Positions 3,337 to 19,320 of a stretch of DNA of 21,598 nt are shown piece after piece. Source of the DNA: a virus; IMG/VR virus record IMGVR_UViG_3300017587_000015, positions 1 to 21,598 of that record. One strand, given 5' to 3'. Position numbers and translations under genes: made by a program. Numbering within the stretch: the first letter of the stretch is position 1; each line of letters starts with the position of its first letter. The notes under the pieces were generated by a model, which ran no database searches, was not told the DNA's origin, and worked only from the letters and a program-made list of their open reading frames with translations.

Positions 3337-4797
3337 ATGGGATTTAGAGAACGAATTGCAGAACTCGCACGAGGGTCACCCGCTCCAGAGACACAAGACT
3401 CCAATTTCGACAACGGAATCTATTCGACAGACGTTGGCGAAATTGAACGACGTGACCCTCGTGATAACGAGCTTGAGAAGTATTGGAAGTTTTACAAGAA
3501 CGAGCCACTCGTACGTGCTCCGATTCAGCAGTTTGCGAACGACGTGACTGAACCGGGGTACAAGATTTACGCAGACAGCCCTGAACTCGAAGAGGACCTT
3601 GATAACGTTCTCGACGAGTGTGCAATCGTTGCTGGTGAGTCTGGTCACGGGTTCCTCGAAGTCCTCCGACAGACGGTTATCCAGAAGGAGGTTCGTGGAA
3701 CTGGACTCGTGGAGTTGGTTCCACGAGAAGGACAGGTCGACAACCCTGACTCGATGTGGGGATTCCGTGTCATCAACCCAGCAACTGTCTCTGCACTGAC
3801 GTACGATGACAAGGCAGTCCTCATCGACCCACACGACTCGATGGAAGACGTGCCAGTCACGGCACGTGATGAATCGGCAGCGTACGTGCAGTTCCACGAG
3901 GCGGCGCTGCTTGGCCCATTCGATGACAAGGAAGAGGTCCCGCTCTCACAGAACGATTTGGTGAAGGTCACGCAAGACCCTGACACGTCTGACATCTGGG
4001 GAACGTCACGTATCGAGAGTGTCGCTCATGAAATCGAAGGACTGCGACAGATAAAGCGTGACAACGAGGAGGCAATCGCAGCAAAGGCATATCCACACTG
4101 GGTAATCAAAGTTGGTCAGCCTGACGCAGAAATCAACGAAGCAGGTCGTGTTGCAGGAATGTGGCCTGAAGAGAAGATGCGTCAACTCAAGAACAAGCAC
4201 TCTCGGAGCAACTTCAAGCCTGGACAGAAGGATATCGTTCCAGGCGACGTGCAGTTCCAGAAGTTGTCTGGAGAGACTGCTGACCTTGAGCGAACGATTA
4301 GTCACTATGTCGAGTACATCCTCGCTGCAATGCCGACGCCGAAGTATGCTGTCGGCTTCAGTGACGAGATTAATCGTGACGTGACTGGTCCACAGGCTGA
4401 CAACTATCAGAGGCAGGTCGAGCGAACACGCCGGCAGTTGGAGGACGCCTTCCAACAGGCACTGCAGCGAAAGGCACGGGACCTCGGCTATGAAGATGGC
4501 ATTGCATCCAGTGTCTCTGTGCGACTGGAACCAGAGCGTGGTTCGAATCCGATGAAGGACGATTCGTTCAACGTGGGCGAGTTCCAGTCCTTTATGCAAG
4601 GAATTGCGACTGCATCTCAGGTAAGCGGAGGTCAACCGGTGATGACCAGAGACGAGATTCGTACACGAGTCCTTGGACTCGAACGGTACGAGGAGATACC
4701 TGATGAACTACAGCCAACCGTTGACAATCCGGAAGACGCTGAGGCTGAAAATGCGGAGACGGATAGCGAAACCGACGAAACTAACGTAAGTGATTAA
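3337..4797 (+). CDS. Portal protein
   Basis: 486 residues. Portals form the dodecameric ring at one capsid vertex that docks the terminase and later the neck. The protein follows the large terminase directly and has the portal layout: a variable N-terminus, a long central region starting YWKFYKNEPLVRAPIQQFAND (residues 49-69), a helical part with IEGLRQIKRDNEEAIAAKAYP, and a C-terminal helical section rich in Gln/Arg (YQRQVERTRRQLEDAFQQAL). It ends in a disordered acidic tail (from about residue 462). The start is well set: AGGTGATATATC precedes the ATG, and the gene begins 6 bases after the terminase stop. Unusually, the protease does not follow; 11 kb of surface-protein genes intervene. Confidence 0.85.
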   Translation: MGFRERIAELARGSPAPETQDSNFDNGIYSTDVGEIERRDPRDNELEKYWKFYKNEPLVRAPIQQFANDVTEPGYKIYADSPELEEDLDNVLDECAIVAGESGHGFLEVLRQTVIQKEVRGTGLVELVPREGQVDNPDSMWGFRVINPATVSALTYDDKAVLIDPHDSMEDVPVTARDESAAYVQFHEAALLGPFDDKEEVPLSQNDLVKVTQDPDTSDIWGTSRIESVAHEIEGLRQIKRDNEEAIAAKAYPHWVIKVGQPDAEINEAGRVAGMWPEEKMRQLKNKHSRSNFKPGQKDIVPGDVQFQKLSGETADLERTISHYVEYILAAMPTPKYAVGFSDEINRDVTGPQADNYQRQVERTRRQLEDAFQQALQRKARDLGYEDGIASSVSVRLEPERGSNPMKDDSFNVGEFQSFMQGIATASQVSGGQPVMTRDEIRTRVLGLERYEEIPDELQPTVDNPEDAEAENAETDSETDETNVSD

Positions 4798-10971: not shown

Positions 10972-12588
10972 ATGAGTGTCAGATTCGACGAGTGGAAGTT
11001 CCCTGAAACCTTTGGCGAGGACACAGCGGATACCTTCCTCAAGTTTCCGGAGACGTTTGACGAGGATAGTGGCGACTACGCTCTCTTCCCGTGGCAATTT
11101 CCACAAACTTTCGAAACATCTGGCACTTCAGTAACAGCATCAAAGGTGTCTGCGTCTACCTCGATGAATGCAGCTACTGCATCTGTACCAGCTACATCTG
11201 CGACTGCATCGAAGGTACCTTCGTCCACCTCGATGAATGCAGCTACTGCATCTGTACCAACTACATCTGCTACTGCATCGAAGGTGTCTTCGTCTGCATC
11301 GATGCAGACACCAGAACTTACAGTTACTACATCTGCTACTGCAACGAAGGTGTCTTCGTCTGCATCGATGAATATAACTACTGCATCTTTACCGACTACA
11401 TCTGCGACTGCAACGAAGGTCTCTTCGTCTACCTCGATGAATACAGCTACTGCATCTGTACCGACTACATCTGCTACTGCAACGAAGGTGTCTTCGTCTG
11501 CATCGATGCAGTCCCCAACAGTAACAGTTACTACATCTGCGACTGCATCGAAAGAAACTTCCAGTGCCTCGATGAATACAGCTACTGCATCTGTACCGAC
11601 TACATCTGCTACTGCAACGAAGCTATCTTCGTCTGCATCGATGCAGTCACCAGCAGTTACAACGAGAAAGGGTGCTACTGCAACAAAGACGAGTGCATCT
11701 TCCTCGATGAATGCGGCGATTGCACAGAAGCCACTCACGTCAGCAACTGCGACGAAGGAAGTAGCAACTTCCTCGATGAGACAGGGAGTTGTCACGACTA
11801 TTCTTCCAGTCAGTGCCAGTAAGGTCGCTGGTACTACGTCGATGGAGACAGGCAGTGTGCTGCCAATCGAGAAGGTTGTTGCGAGCAAGAGTGCATCGGT
11901 TGCAGCGATGGAGAGTCCATCGGTACTGGAAATCGAGATAGCTGTTCCGACGAAGGTTGCCGGAACTTCGTCGATGAATACAGGAGCAGTAACTCCAGTA
12001 CTGCCTGGAACTGCGACGAAGGTTGCTGGAACTTCGTCGATGAGTACTGCAGTAGCGAAACCATTTGTTGATTCATCGACACAATCTGTTAGACCAACAT
12101 CTTCTATACTTCCAGCGAACAGTGTTGTTGGGCAAGGAGAATCCAGTGTTCTGTTCAAGTCGTTTGCATCCCCACTATCAATCTTTGATACGGCAGAGGC
12201 TAATACAAGTGGACAGAAGAGTCAAGTGCTTACGACACTAACACAATTACAAGTAACTGGTAATTCCACGACGAATACTGTTACGACAGCACCAGTTGTC
12301 ACGGTGGTTGGCACAGACGCTGTTCCACCGAACCTGACACTCGATTCCGTGACGACGCCTGTGGATGTAACGGTGTTCGATGTTGACTTGAGTTACAGGG
12401 TCGATGCGGATTCGACTCTCATCGCAGTTAGCATCGGAGAGAAGACGAGTTTCGCACGACGCTCCGGTTTCAACATCGACAATAACGTGAATACGGTAAG
12501 TGAGTTTGTAACTGCTGGAACAAAGGCGAAAGAATCAGACGTTCAGAAAGTGTTCAACCGGAAGTTCGGTGGACGAAGCAACGTGTAA
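10972..12588 (+). CDS. Tandem-repeat stalk protein (probable fibre shaft)
   Basis: 538 residues in three parts. Residues 1-54 hold three copies of a FPETF-like motif (KFPETF at 9 and 24, QFPQTF at 42) within an acidic, aromatic segment. Residues 55-368 are fourteen tandem units of 22-23 residues with consensus TATKVSSSxSMNxATASVPTTSA; a Met recurs at residues 65, 88, 111, 133, 156, 179, 201, 224, 246, 269, 291, 313, 335 and 357, and a Lys normally lies seven residues before it. Residues from about 440 (VTTAPVVTVVGT) to the end are a less repetitive, more acidic domain ending KVFNRKFGGRSNV. It starts 8 bases after the propeller gene, so the two may form one fibre from separate head and shaft chains. 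A stalk or fibre role is inferred from repeat type and context; no known family is recognised. Translation start ATG 10972 has no Shine-Dalgarno. Confidence 0.6.
   Translation: MSVRFDEWKFPETFGEDTADTFLKFPETFDEDSGDYALFPWQFPQTFETSGTSVTASKVSASTSMNAATASVPATSATASKVPSSTSMNAATASVPTTSATASKVSSSASMQTPELTVTTSATATKVSSSASMNITTASLPTTSATATKVSSSTSMNTATASVPTTSATATKVSSSASMQSPTVTVTTSATASKETSSASMNTATASVPTTSATATKLSSSASMQSPAVTTRKGATATKTSASSSMNAAIAQKPLTSATATKEVATSSMRQGVVTTILPVSASKVAGTTSMETGSVLPIEKVVASKSASVAAMESPSVLEIEIAVPTKVAGTSSMNTGAVTPVLPGTATKVAGTSSMSTAVAKPFVDSSTQSVRPTSSILPANSVVGQGESSVLFKSFASPLSIFDTAEANTSGQKSQVLTTLTQLQVTGNSTTNTVTTAPVVTVVGTDAVPPNLTLDSVTTPVDVTVFDVDLSYRVDADSTLIAVSIGEKTSFARRSGFNIDNNVNTVSEFVTAGTKAKESDVQKVFNRKFGGRSNV
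11134..12075 (+). repeat. Fourteen in-frame tandem repeats, 66 or 69 bp each
   Basis: Unit lengths, judged from the recurring ATG (Met) codon, are 69, 69, 66, 69, 69, 66, 69, 66, 69 and then 66 bp. The first eight units are nearly identical in DNA, often sharing runs such as TCGATGAATACAGCTACTGC, and follow an N-N-Q, N-N-Q, N-Q order (residue after the Met), a sign of duplication in blocks of two or three units. The last five are diverged. Such arrays change length easily by recombination or slippage. Confidence 0.85.
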
Positions 12589-12597
12589 GGTGATACT

Positions 12598-12999
12598 ATG
12601 CCAATGCAACCAAGTGATGATACGTTCTACATAAAGGAAGGGAATACTGTTCCACTCCTGCAGGGACAGCTTACTGACGAGAACAATAGACCTCTCAACC
12701 TACAGTTCGCGGAGGGGGTGAAGTTTCGTATGTACGACCCTCGCTCTGGAGAGACAGTTCTCTTCCGTGGAGCAATCATTCAAAATGAATCGAACGGTGT
12801 TGTACAGTTTGCGTGGAAACAGAATGAGACAGAGAATCCGGGTCGCTACAGAGCAGAGTTCGTCGTACAGTATCCGTCTGGTCGAGAGGAGTCGTTCCCG
12901 AACTTCGGATATCGTGACGTGATGATTTGGGGAACTGAAAAGTCGTCACAGATTCCTGTTGGAGACGACCTCGACGGATGGTTGGAAGGTGATTACTGA
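12598..12999 (+). CDS. BppU-like beta-sandwich virion protein
   Basis: 133 residues. The pattern FYIKEGNTVPLLQGQLTD, then VKFRMYDP, a strand with AIIQNESNGVVQFAW, then PGRYRAEFVVQYPSGREESFPNFGYRDV, follows the N-terminal immunoglobulin-like domain of phage baseplate upper proteins (BppU) and related small virion proteins: an IKxGDT-like opening, a GxxxYxAEF step and a FPNxGY ending. These domains attach receptor-binding proteins to baseplates or capsids, which fits its place directly after the stalk gene. GGTGATACT precedes the ATG by a normal distance. The stop overlaps the next ATG by one base (TGATG), so the next gene is translationally coupled. The resemblance is by motif reading, not a search. 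Confidence 0.55.
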   Translation: MPMQPSDDTFYIKEGNTVPLLQGQLTDENNRPLNLQFAEGVKFRMYDPRSGETVLFRGAIIQNESNGVVQFAWKQNETENPGRYRAEFVVQYPSGREESFPNFGYRDVMIWGTEKSSQIPVGDDLDGWLEGDY

Positions 13000-14048
13000 T
13001 GGCTACATACAGAGAAGGCGAAGTTGTCGAAGTGAACGTCGACGGTTCGGGTGAGCGTGGTGTCGTTACAGGTGTCTTCGAGCAACCAGTCAACTGGCCT
13101 ACGGGAGATGATGGTGAAGATGAGACGATACAGGGGACTCCAGAGAATCCCGTCTACATCATCTCACTCGTTTCTGGTGGGTCGAGAGCATACCGAGAGG
13201 ATGAGATGAAGTCATCACAGTTCGATGAGGAGATGCCTGATGTGGAGGATGCAGTTGAAGATATCGAGATGTCGTCGTTGGAGATAGTGCCGGGAGATGG
13301 TCGAGAAGGCTCCGATAAGAACGACGATGGCTCTGCATCAGACAAGGAGAACGACATCGATTTCAGTGATTCCATCATCGAAGGACTGAAGAATAAGGTA
13401 GAGGAACACAACGAAGAGTACGGCGACGAACCAGGGAAACGTGTGACTCTCGACATGTTGAAGGCAGTGTTCCGTCGTGGAGCAGGAGCATACTCCGACT
13501 CACATAGAGAAGGCATCTCGCGTAACCAGTGGGCGTACGCCAGAGTCGACGCGTTCCTCTATCTGGTGAGGAACGGTGAGCCTGAGAACGAGAACTACAC
13601 ACAGGACAACGACTTGCTCCCTGAAGACCATCCACGATACACAGGAAGCGATGTGACGGATGCATCGTGGTACGGTTGGTACGACCATGTCGACGATGTG
13701 GAAGAGCTTGCGGCTGTCAAGAGCGAGCTTGAGAAACGACTGCGTGCCAACAACGTCGCCACACTGTCACGAACTCGTGGAACGAGCGAGATGACGTACG
13801 ATGAACTGATTGACGTTCCCGGTGTTGATGACCCCGGTGTCGGATGGGACGAGTACCCAGATTCGTGGGAGGAGTCGGAGCAACCGAACCGACTCATCCT
13901 GCTCAAAGCGTGGTCATCGATGGGCGGAACGTGGCGTGGATGTTTCAGAGAGATGACGACTAACATGACACCACGTCGTGCACGGAAACTGTGCAGTTCG
14001 ATGAAGGACGAAGTGTATGGAACCGAAGAATGGAGAGGTTTTGCGTGA
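12999..14048 (+). CDS. Multi-domain virion-associated protein sharing a module with the protease fusion
   Basis: 349 residues. Residues 1-70 look like a small SH3- or Tudor-like barrel (GEVVEVNVDG, RGVVTGVF, NPVYIISLVSGG). Residues 75-125 are an acidic linker. Residues 148-211 contain LKAVFRRGAGAYSDSHR, then QWAYARVDAFLYLVRNG, then YTQDNDLLPEDHP; the same module, more diverged, is in the protease fusion at residues 580-646 (VYRRGIKSYD, WAIERVREYANLLEAG, YSEDNNLLPSNHP). Residues 265-349 form another conserved-looking part with RLILLKAWSSMGGTWRGCF and ARKLCSSMKDEVYGTEEWRG, including Cys316 and Cys332. Functions are unknown; occurrence beside head and tail genes suggests virion assembly. GGTGA lies upstream, and the start overlaps the previous stop. 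Confidence 0.55.
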   Translation: MATYREGEVVEVNVDGSGERGVVTGVFEQPVNWPTGDDGEDETIQGTPENPVYIISLVSGGSRAYREDEMKSSQFDEEMPDVEDAVEDIEMSSLEIVPGDGREGSDKNDDGSASDKENDIDFSDSIIEGLKNKVEEHNEEYGDEPGKRVTLDMLKAVFRRGAGAYSDSHREGISRNQWAYARVDAFLYLVRNGEPENENYTQDNDLLPEDHPRYTGSDVTDASWYGWYDHVDDVEELAAVKSELEKRLRANNVATLSRTRGTSEMTYDELIDVPGVDDPGVGWDEYPDSWEESEQPNRLILLKAWSSMGGTWRGCFREMTTNMTPRRARKLCSSMKDEVYGTEEWRGFA

Positions 14049-15902: not shown

Positions 15903-15945
15903 ACTAATCAAATGAACAGAAGAGTAAAGGGTACGGGACACTAAT
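15903..15945 (+). promoter_or_regulatory. Promoter-like element 5 (protease-capsid operon), copy B of the 43-bp block
   Basis: Identical at 42 of 43 positions to 1199-1241, with core GAACAGAAGAGTAAAGG from 15914. With TAAAGG as TATA-like box the transcript would start near 15954, leaving about 43 bases of leader before the protease ATG, which has its own GGTGA. A short frame (ATG 15947 to TGA 16006, 19 codons) begins right after the block and ends inside the protease gene. Confidence 0.55.
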
Positions 15946-15996: not shown

Positions 15997-18459
15997 ATGC
16001 AAATGAGCGCAAACTTCGGCACAACAGCCTCTCTTGAAATAGTCAACAGAGAGACTGCTGTCGACAACCTCAATGTAGATGATGGAACGGTAGTCCACGG
16101 TATTGCGCTCGGTGTCGACGACACGACAGTGGGACAAAGCGGTGTGAAGAAGAAGTGGCCTGCTGAAACGTTGAAGGAGGCTGCACCATCGCTTGCTGGA
16201 ACACCACTCGTCACAGACCACGATAACGGTAGCGAGAACGTCGTTGGTCAAGTGACGAAGGCGGGGTACAAGCAGGACGTTGGTGTCATCTACGAAGCCG
16301 TCGTCTTCGACGAGGAGCTTGCACAGAAGATACAGAACGGATTGCTGGAAGTATCGATTCGGGGCTATCACCCAGACCCCGAGAAGATGGAGAAAGACCA
16401 AGACGGTGCAGCAATCATCGACAAACTCGTCTTCGACAACCTGTCAATCGTTCCACAGGGTGCATCGGAGAGCAACACGCTCGAAGTGGGTGAACACGCC
16501 GAACTTTCTCAGTCGGAATTGAACGACGCATTGGAGGAACTGGAACCGGTGTCGTTAGCGTCACACGATTCTGGCGACGAGTCTGGCGATGGTTCAGATA
16601 ATGGTTCTCCCGACCTCTCCGACGAGGACAAGGAGATTATCAAGAGTGCGTACAACGAACTGTACGACTCTGCGAAGAAAGCACAGGATAGGGCGAAGGA
16701 GCTTGGCATCGGCAAAGGTCACCACAAGGTTACGATTGGTGACACGACGTTCTATATGCCTGGAGGCGACCATCAGGAGTTCCTCGACAAACTTCGTCAA
16801 GAAGTAACTGACACGAGTGAGGAGAATCGGAGCGATACATCCGAGCAGGACGACGCTGATAGAAAGTCGCTCTACGATAAGATTTGTGACGAGCAGGGTG
16901 TGGAGAACGACGTGCTCGAAACCATCGCTGACCTCTCCGAGAAGGAGATATATGCTGAATGGGAAGACGCAGTCAACATGGACGAAGAGATGATGGAGGA
17001 ATGGATGGACCATTCCTGTTCCGACAAAGCGTCTATTCGTCCAGTTCGTGTCCAGAAGCGGAATCTGGGTCTGATGCAGAAACCACGTGATGAATGGGAC
17101 GAAGTCGACTACACGTCGGCGCAGAGGGCTGTCTCGTTCATCTCACGGATGCGTGGTCAACGACCAGATGATATCGACGATGGTCCTGCCGGTTGCCCAA
17201 GTCGATGGGCTATCTCGCTGATGAACTGGGGCTACACACCCTTCGACGAGATGCCTGCAGAACCGTCTGCCGAAGCAGGACTGTCACAACACTTCCCCGA
17301 CTACGCTGATATCAACAGCGAGGATGACTGGGAGGAGCCGAACTTCGAGGACTTCCGAGAGCCGTACAATCTCTCGGAGGACCAGTCTTTCGAAAGCCTC
17401 GACACGGAGATGAAGTCTGCAATCGCGGAACACTTCATCTACGCCGAAGGTGGATTGCCACCGGAGAACTACGGTGATTTGAAGTTCCCCGTCGTTTCGC
17501 CGGATGGGACACTCTACCTCGATGCGCTTCGCTCGGTGAAGCAAACACTACATCTGGCTGATGTAAGCGAGGAAGATGCCGATAAGATTCGTGAAATAGC
17601 CAACGACTTGGCGAAGCGTGAGTTCGGCAAGGACTGGAAGACTGGACAGAGTATCGAGCAATCCGTGGATATTTCACAGGATGCGCTACAGGCGATACAG
17701 GCTGAAGCCCACTCTGTACCGACTCGTGCCAAGAGTCATATCTCACAGTTCAAAGAAGTCTACCGTCGTGGAATCAAGTCCTACGATATGGTAGACGATG
17801 AGGTGACTCAAGGAAAGGATGCAGAGGAGTGGGCAATCGAGCGAGTTCGTGAGTATGCGAACTTGCTCGAAGCAGGACTTCCTGCTGACGAGCGATACAG
17901 CGAGGACAACAATCTGCTTCCGAGTAATCACCCTCGCAGTGAGCCGATAGATGACACGCAGTTGACTGAAGTCAGTCCTGCTGGCTTCAGAGGCGTCGAG
18001 TTGGAACCAACAGTGATGACGGAAGCAACGGTTGCTAAACTACAAGGTGACAATACAATGACTGATACCACAGACGAGCGCGTCGAGGAACTCGAAGCCC
18101 AAGTAGAGGAACTCGAATCGCGTAACGATGAGCTGCTCGACGAAATCGAGCAGGTTCGTGCAGAGTACGCGGCAACGCTTGCCGACGAAGGGCCTTTCAC
18201 GAAGGATGAGCTTGTCGACAAGTTCACCGTGGAGGAACTGCGCGAGAAGTACGACGAGAACGAAGCGGTACAACTCGCTGAAGGTGGCCCTGCTCCACAG
18301 GCAGGAGACGCCGAGGAAGCTGAACTGAGCGATGACTCCGACGATGTTGATGAGGAGTATATCGCCACCCTCGAATCTCGTATCGAGAACTACGAGGAGA
18401 TGGGTTGGGACGCTGCTGCAGAGACGGCGCGTTCTGAACTCAAGGAGATGCGGAACTAA
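15997..18459 (+). CDS. Prohead protease fused to several modules and a C-terminal scaffold
   Basis: 820 residues, far longer than the usual 200-400 for a prohead protease. Residues 1-160 are the protease: LVTDHDNG gives His75 and LLEVSIRGYHP gives Ser120, the His/Ser layout of HK97- or XkdF-type prohead proteases, followed by DNLSIVPQGAS. Residues 160-290 are mostly acidic and helical, with a small basic strand-rich piece (GKGHHKVTIGDTTFYMPGGD). Residues 355-420 have Cys400 and a Trp-rich part (GCPSRWAISLMNWGY). Residues 475-548 hold PDGTLYLDALRSVKQTLHL followed by charged helices. Residues 580-646 are the RRG...DNNLLPSNHP module also found at 12999-14048. From 688 the protein is a coiled coil with an acidic tail, typical of scaffolds. 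The protease would mature the capsid by cutting scaffold and delta-like regions. GGTGACACC before ATG 15997 fixes the start. Confidence 0.8.
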   Translation: MQMSANFGTTASLEIVNRETAVDNLNVDDGTVVHGIALGVDDTTVGQSGVKKKWPAETLKEAAPSLAGTPLVTDHDNGSENVVGQVTKAGYKQDVGVIYEAVVFDEELAQKIQNGLLEVSIRGYHPDPEKMEKDQDGAAIIDKLVFDNLSIVPQGASESNTLEVGEHAELSQSELNDALEELEPVSLASHDSGDESGDGSDNGSPDLSDEDKEIIKSAYNELYDSAKKAQDRAKELGIGKGHHKVTIGDTTFYMPGGDHQEFLDKLRQEVTDTSEENRSDTSEQDDADRKSLYDKICDEQGVENDVLETIADLSEKEIYAEWEDAVNMDEEMMEEWMDHSCSDKASIRPVRVQKRNLGLMQKPRDEWDEVDYTSAQRAVSFISRMRGQRPDDIDDGPAGCPSRWAISLMNWGYTPFDEMPAEPSAEAGLSQHFPDYADINSEDDWEEPNFEDFREPYNLSEDQSFESLDTEMKSAIAEHFIYAEGGLPPENYGDLKFPVVSPDGTLYLDALRSVKQTLHLADVSEEDADKIREIANDLAKREFGKDWKTGQSIEQSVDISQDALQAIQAEAHSVPTRAKSHISQFKEVYRRGIKSYDMVDDEVTQGKDAEEWAIERVREYANLLEAGLPADERYSEDNNLLPSNHPRSEPIDDTQLTEVSPAGFRGVELEPTVMTEATVAKLQGDNTMTDTTDERVEELEAQVEELESRNDELLDEIEQVRAEYAATLADEGPFTKDELVDKFTVEELREKYDENEAVQLAEGGPAPQAGDAEEAELSDDSDDVDEEYIATLESRIENYEEMGWDAAAETARSELKEMRN
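18046..18050 (+). promoter_or_regulatory. Internal ribosome-binding site for a nested scaffold start
   Basis: GGTGA lies 7 bases before an in-frame ATG at 18058, inside the protease gene. The 13 bases ACTACAAGGTGAC around it are repeated exactly at 18481-18493 in front of the major capsid gene, where the spacing is 6 bases. An exact copy of the capsid-gene leader inside a coding region is unlikely to be chance. Confidence 0.6.
18058..18459 (+). CDS. Nested scaffold protein (in-frame internal start in protease gene)
   Basis: 133 residues starting MTDTTDERVEELEAQ, identical to residues 688-820 of the protease fusion. Heptad-like Leu and Val spacing (VEELEAQVEELESRNDELL) predicts a coiled coil over the first 35-40 residues, then helices and an acidic, Gly/Pro-containing linker, and a final helical part (ATLESRIENYEEMGWDAA). 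Phage lambda makes its scaffold Nu3 from an internal start in protease gene C in just this way, so the same strategy is likely: excess scaffold from 18058, plus a few protease-scaffold fusions for incorporation into the procapsid. Evidence is the internal GGTGA, the ATG, the coiled coil, and position just before the major capsid gene; expression is not shown. Confidence 0.55.
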   Translation: MTDTTDERVEELEAQVEELESRNDELLDEIEQVRAEYAATLADEGPFTKDELVDKFTVEELREKYDENEAVQLAEGGPAPQAGDAEEAELSDDSDDVDEEYIATLESRIENYEEMGWDAAAETARSELKEMRN

Positions 18460-18498
18460 ACACGAATTCAACAAACAATAACTACAAGGTGACTTAAT

Positions 18499-19320
18499 AT
18501 GGCAGAAGATGGAACTCTCACGAGCGCGGAAGTAATCACACAGGAAGCTGTTCGTCAGGAAGTCCTCGAAGATATCGAGGAGTCGCTTGTCTTCCGACAG
18601 GCGTTTGACGAGTACGACGCAACGAACGTCAACTCCAGTTCGGTGGAGATTCCCGTCGCTGACGGCAACGTTGGCGAGACGGGGACTGTTGCAGAGGGTA
18701 CTGCACCGAGCCGTGAAGAGGCTCTCACGAGCAAGGTCACGGTTTCGACGAGCAAGTACATGGCAGAGGCTGCCATCACGCGAGAGGCCATCGAGGACTC
18801 CATCCTCGGTGAAATCGAGCGCCAGGTCGAGGCACACCGAGAGGCTCTGATGGAGGCTCTCGACGGTGCAGCGTACGACGCCCTCTCCAGTGGTCTGACT
18901 CGTGCCGCTGTTGGTGACAACGGCGGGTCGATGGACTACGATACGTTCATCGACGCGATGACGGAGCTGGAGAACGACGGGTATCAGCCTGACTTCGCCA
19001 TCGTCTCGGCACAGTCCAAGGGTGACCTGATGAAGTCGAACGAGTTCACCCGTGCTTCGGAGATGGGTGACGAGGTCGTCTTCAATGGTCAGTTCGGCGA
19101 GATTGCCGGCGTTCCGGTTGCTGTCTCGAACGTTGGCGACCTCGGTGCAGGAGAGGGCTTCGTCTTCGACACCGACCATACTGGTGTCGAGGTAATCCGC
19201 TCCGGCGTCGAGACACGCGAGTACGAGGAGGAGAGCAACGACCAGGTTGTTCTTCAGATTCGTACTCGGCGTGGTTACAAGGTACTTCGCGGTGACGCGT
19301 TCGCAAAGATTACGGCGTAA
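18499..19320 (+). CDS. Major capsid protein, HK97 fold
   Basis: 273 residues, with the layout of HK97-type capsid proteins: an N-terminal helical arm (VLEDIEESLVFRQAFDE), a Thr/Ser-rich extended loop (NVGETGTVAEGTAPSREEAL), KVTVSTSKYMAEAAITREAIEDS leading into the long spine helix (ILGEIERQVEAHREALMEAL), then the A-domain with DFAIVSAQSKGDLMKSNEF, IAGVPVAVSNVG and the C-terminal strand RRGYKVLRGDAFAKI. It assembles into the icosahedral shell around the scaffold. A strong GGTGA sits 6 bases before the ATG. G+C is visibly higher than in the cassette genes, with strong codon bias, as expected for the most abundant virion protein. The short N-terminal part before the arm suggests little or no separate delta domain, consistent with a separate scaffold. 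Confidence 0.9.
   Translation: MAEDGTLTSAEVITQEAVRQEVLEDIEESLVFRQAFDEYDATNVNSSSVEIPVADGNVGETGTVAEGTAPSREEALTSKVTVSTSKYMAEAAITREAIEDSILGEIERQVEAHREALMEALDGAAYDALSSGLTRAAVGDNGGSMDYDTFIDAMTELENDGYQPDFAIVSAQSKGDLMKSNEFTRASEMGDEVVFNGQFGEIAGVPVAVSNVGDLGAGEGFVFDTDHTGVEVIRSGVETREYEEESNDQVVLQIRTRRGYKVLRGDAFAKITA

Follow-up and report, generated by a model that had tools for sequence, protein, structure and literature searches.

Does the long open reading frame (ORF) upstream of the major capsid gene of this virus yield one protein, or does it hold a second gene within it? The window (the whole 21,598-nt stretch of DNA that was analysed) belongs to a haloarchaeal tailed virus whose closest named relative is HGTV-1. 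Its capsid protein is 37% identical to that of HGTV-1 over 98% of the length, and its protease-scaffold gene is 47% identical in the matched parts, two pieces that make up 38% of the query; both genes are homologous to those of Halomagnusviridae-like viruses (the HGTV-1 group). The relevant features of the region are as follows.

15997..18459, plus strand: protease-linker-scaffold ORF, 820 aa (PHROG 36109, E=1.2e-47, residues 21-218)
15997..16536, plus strand: N-terminal domain, predicted capsid maturation protease (alignment, AlphaFold model, PDB fold matches)
16537..18057, plus strand: variable linker, ~500 aa
18058..18060, plus strand: internal in-frame ATG at codon 688, the proposed scaffold start
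18058..18459, plus strand: proposed nested scaffold, 133 aa, acidic coiled coil (composition, AlphaFold)
18499..19320, plus strand: major capsid protein of the HK97 type, 273 aa (Pfam, PHROG, HGTV-1 gp13)

Our analysis suggests that the ORF is best explained as a capsid-protease gene with a scaffold gene nested in it, a reading to which we assign a probability of roughly 0.83.

The N-terminal domain can be assigned with moderate confidence to the T4 gp21/assemblin fold, as a capsid maturation protease. An AlphaFold model of residues 1-180 (pLDDT 74) has T4 gp21 as its best PDB match (5JBL, E=4.7e-4, probability 1.00, TM about 0.5), with the herpesvirus assemblins ranking after it. In the alignment of relatives, S120 is invariant and H75 nearly so, and the ORF also has a weak match to PHROG 530 (head maturation protease, E=0.0038). 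Alignment with relatives shows that ATG 16003 (MSANFG...) fits the N-termini of the relatives better than 15997 does, and it is probably the true start of the protease ORF. The linker that follows is longer in many relatives, where it can reach many hundreds of residues, and is reduced to almost nothing in seven others (L010, L032, and L034-L038). Modules similar to those of the linker occur in the upstream ORF at 12999-14048 (e.g., RYSEDNNLLPSNHPR and NYTQDNDLLPEDHPRY) and in head genes of relatives. Further upstream, the ORF at 10972-12588 encodes a Ser/Thr/Ala-rich protein with tandem coding repeats (11090-11700), a by-product of which is long open frames in another frame and on the opposite strand.

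The C-terminal domain lies in the same reading frame as the protease and upstream of the capsid gene, and its composition is as the original prediction had described it, that of an acidic coiled-coil protein. The predicted 133-aa product starting at 18058 has a pI of about 4.05 and 35% D+E, and its AlphaFold model places a long helix at residues 2-44 with shorter helices after it (mean pLDDT 81, with a pTM of only 0.49). A fold search with this model matched no known scaffold. It returned only two significant matches, both to long viral proteins, 775 and 993 aa in length, which are possibly homologous to the ORF in its entirety. Position, acidity, and the coiled coil lead us to infer a scaffold role for this domain. 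The capsid protein itself is well recognized (Pfam Phage_capsid_4, 2.9e-11, and Phage_capsid, 4.3e-8; PHROG 544, 4.7e-27). An HK97-type delta domain, an N-terminal extension of ~100 residues, was not found in it, as the Phage_capsid match spans residues 12-272 of 273. The HFTV1 capsid protein provides a contrast, as its first 100 residues are absent from the virion (PMC12494034). Between protease and capsid the window holds no separate scaffold gene, the capsid gene following directly. A nested scaffold is therefore favored, since the capsid lacks an N-terminal extension, lies immediately downstream, and leaves no other scaffold candidate. The small intervening gene of the HGTV-1 clade was also considered as a scaffold and rejected, its sequence being decoration-like and not a coil.

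Three scans of viral contigs recovered 31 loci with related capsid genes, 29 of which reach across the junction between protease and coil, with capsids 33-78% identical to that of the window. Genome contigs were also scanned with the capsid alignment and yielded no proviruses, and the protease genes of Humcor1 and HJTV-4, when examined, had no such nested start. In the window and all 29 covering loci, protease and coil are joined in a single uninterrupted ORF, and each of the 30 carries an in-frame ATG where the coil begins, with T, S, N, or G as the next residue. This ATG is retained despite linkers that differ greatly in length and sequence. The nested ATG of each relative was picked by its position at the coil head, so a slight selection bias is possible.

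Such a layout might also be produced by a fused protease-scaffold with no true internal start, similar to P2 gpO, in which the 820-aa protein would be the sole product and any free scaffold would be cut from it by the protease. That no relative has a stop codon between the two domains agrees with this explanation, as does the lack of a Shine-Dalgarno (SD) sequence at the nested ATG in several of them. We nevertheless consider it improbable, as the methionine is conserved within a linker that is otherwise unconserved, and protein-level constraint does not explain the synonymous signature centered on the ATG that is described below.

To obtain this signature, the use of A or T at third codon positions near the nested ATG was compared with that for identical amino acids in the rest of each ORF, over 22 non-redundant loci; a set of 11, one from each 60%-identity cluster, served as a control for kinship. 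Synonymous codons ending in A or T are in excess at codons -7 to +7 of the 22 nested ATGs (observed/expected 1.66, z 11.3), and the excess is absent beyond about 8 codons on either side. Elsewhere in these ORFs, 489 in-frame ATGs gave a ratio of 1.00 (z 0.0), and the real capsid starts, used as a positive control, gave 1.86. These z values overstate the independence of the loci, which are related; the cluster representatives correct for this in part and retain the signal (n=11, ratio 1.71, z 8.3). In the window alone the excess is modest (9 observed versus 6.0 expected, z 1.7), and the case therefore rests on the family. A+T content rises from about 0.38 to 0.75 solely between -21 and +21 of the nested ATG, staying at background further upstream, and in 17 of the 22 ORFs (2.2 expected) no other in-frame ATG lies in surroundings as A/T-rich as those of the nested one. 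In most ORFs, local folding at the nested ATG ranks with the weakest. A signal that is synonymous, symmetric, and centered on the ATG points to the trace of a used start codon; neither a conserved residue nor a cleavage site would be expected to give such a signal. Judged from these sequence patterns, it is very likely that translation also starts internally where the coil begins, at a conserved site, as in lambda C/Nu3. The lambda-like nested start that had been proposed for this locus is thus strongly supported, at the level of a family-wide ATG with a start-like synonymous signature.

The original prediction also drew attention to a leader that precedes both the internal ATG and the capsid ATG, and this repeat is real, at 14 nt:

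18038..18051, plus strand: AACTACAAGGTGAC, first copy, 14 nt (the 13-mer identity plus one base 5'), before ATG 18058
18480..18493, plus strand: AACTACAAGGTGAC, second copy, the capsid gene leader, before ATG 18499

The window has exactly two copies of the 13-mer ACTACAAGGTGAC (18039-18051 and 18481-18493). Copy 1 of the 14-mer ends 6 nt before its ATG and copy 2 ends 5 nt before the capsid ATG; counted from the A of GGTGA to the start codon, the distances are 7 and 6 nt, a spacing that is nearly but not exactly matched. The haloarchaeal SD core AGGTGA (18045-18050 in copy 1), which is complementary to the 3' end of 16S rRNA and precedes several other genes of the window, accounts for approximately 6 of the 14 nt. 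About two pairs of exact 14-nt repeats arise by chance per dinucleotide shuffle of the 21.6 kb, so the repeat alone is unremarkable; to have its two copies flush with two start codons is unusual. Among unrelated nested and capsid leaders (462 cross pairs) the longest common string is 10 nt, and within any other single virus the two leaders have at most 7 nt in common, which makes the matched leader a private trait of the window virus. As a conserved regulatory device it was rejected.

The further proposal, in which the matched ribosome-binding site would keep the amounts of scaffold and capsid in proportion, was not borne out by the comparison. The matched leader is confined to the window virus, most relatives show no clear SD ahead of the nested ATG, and any that occurs there tends to be weaker than the one of the capsid gene, whose leader has the longer SD match in most relatives. 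SD matches of at least 5 nt occur at 6 of the 22 nested ATGs versus 27 of 494 other ATGs (p=0.0015), so that the SD is enriched here but not general, and we rejected it as the defining signal. The ATG is present in 29 of 29 relatives; L009, the locus with the capsid 78% identical to that of the window, retains it but lacks GGTGA.

Leaderless mRNAs are frequent in haloarchaea, and the scaffold might accordingly be translated from a leaderless or short-leader transcript of its own, made from an internal promoter as for herpesvirus UL26.5 within UL26. At the sequence level, the 22 loci show no TATA-like rise in A+T near -27, nor is A+T raised in the interval proper to a TATA box, -24 to -36. A promoter-like element does occur elsewhere in the window:

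15903..15945, plus strand: one copy of a 43-nt near-exact direct repeat, ACTAATCAAATGAACAGAAGAGTAAAGGGTACRGGACACTAAT, upstream of the protease ORF
1199-1241: the other copy, upstream of the ORF at 1244 and just ahead of the terminase gene

Short copies lie at 862-875 and 1025-1038. This repeat could be a promoter or regulatory element shared by the packaging and protease-scaffold-capsid blocks, but the copy at the protease gene precedes 15997 and none is found near 18058. With no signal in its favor, an internal promoter for the scaffold was rejected as very improbable.

The nested ATG and its leader might instead be left over from a scaffold gene that was once separate and became fused to the protease gene, and now be unused. 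Separate, scaffold-like acidic genes do exist in other haloviruses, such as HSTV-2 gp11. This explanation is highly improbable, since each of the 22 non-redundant lineages, even at only about 30% identity, keeps the fused state and an ATG with A/T-rich flanks, and unused sites would not be expected to persist in this way. In HSTV-2 (L005:4486-5499, gp11 and gp12), gp12 is annotated as a scaffold protein and yet resembles a decoration-type protein; the neighboring acidic gp11 seems the likelier scaffold. HATV-2, a member of another family (Soleiviridae), has in its gp11 (L004:3380-4945) a nested, in-frame ATG at 4490 with A/T-rich surroundings at the head of a coiled coil, with a synonymous A/T excess of z 2.2, and the gene carries the same linker module as the HGTV-1-type genes. 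The nested start may therefore extend beyond the HGTV-1 capsid family; the capsid gene of HATV-2 was missed by our capsid searches.

The gene layout, the moderately supported protease fold, and the ATG with its conservation and start-like nucleotide pattern suggest the following model for the nested scaffold. Protease-scaffold and capsid would be translated from one mRNA. Initiation at 15997 or 16003 would give a few molecules of the 820-aa protease-linker-scaffold fusion, and internal ribosome entry at ATG 18058, aided by AGGTGA and the unstructured A/T-rich patch, would give the free 133-aa acidic coiled-coil protein. The free protein would act as the scaffold on which the 273-aa HK97-type capsid protein assembles into a procapsid; the fusion would bring the protease inside through the shared scaffold tail, and the protease would then destroy the scaffold.

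We found no description of a nested scaffold in an archaeal virus in the literature searched, which comprised papers outside subscription journals. While this type of arrangement is already known, its presence in archaeal viruses, its breadth there, and its often SD-free form appear to be undescribed in searchable papers. For haloarchaeal tailed viruses generally, we see about an even chance that a family-wide and mostly SD-independent internal start, marked by an unstructured A/T-rich patch of ~40 nt, makes a scaffold from within the protease gene, and that this is the first case of a conserved internal start among archaeal viruses. If so, these viruses would offer a natural set of variants for learning how archaeal ribosomes enter messages internally. 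They contribute about 22 non-redundant candidate internal in-frame starts, the first archaeal example having been proven only in 2025. The proposed nested protein is also a candidate for the missing scaffold of this virus group, in which HGTV-1 gp11 and each of its relatives carry the annotation of a single protein and probably give two.

Among known systems, the closest in layout is lambda C/Nu3, whose overlap was reportedly described by Shaw and Murialdo in 1980 (as cited in PMC8508860) and is the classic precedent. In lambda, and by our reading in these viruses, a single ORF has an N-terminal serine protease and a C-terminal scaffold, the scaffold is also made from an internal in-frame start, and the capsid gene lies downstream; the HGTV-1 clade has one small intervening gene, as lambda has D. 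Unlike lambda, the viruses described here are archaeal, have variable linkers that are often hundreds of residues long, and often lack an SD sequence at the nested start; direct sequence similarity between lambda C and the window protease is not established. Our analysis suggests that archaeal tailed viruses, too, use the strategy of a protease with a nested scaffold, which is known from lambda and takes another form in herpesviruses. Herpesvirus UL26/UL26.5 likewise combines a protease-scaffold fusion with a free, 3'-coterminal scaffold, and the predicted protease fold of the window is assemblin-like; the herpesvirus scaffold has a separate internal promoter, whereas here translation initiation is indicated. 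P2 gpO also carries protease and scaffold in one protein, and to our knowledge the P2 scaffold is not made from an internal start of its own. In both lambda and P2, protease and scaffold come from a single gene (PMC8508860). Proof that a haloarchaeal gene can be translated from an internal in-frame start exists for Cas11b, made from cas8b of Haloferax volcanii; as far as its authors know, it is the first for archaea, and they regard a missing SD as no argument against a start (PMC11899642). As proposed for the window, an in-frame internal ATG, there with only a weak SD, gives a second product from the 3' end of the gene; Cas11b differs in being a non-viral CRISPR protein with no homology to the scaffold. 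The true homologue is HGTV-1 gp11, annotated as a single 888-aa "prohead protease", which has a nested ATG in the corresponding position (KC292026; L003, about 5959; AAAGTGATTAATATG), with the nested start reading AAAGTGATTAATATGACTGAACTA, and which differs from the window in having gp12, a decoration-like gene, between gp11 and the capsid gene.
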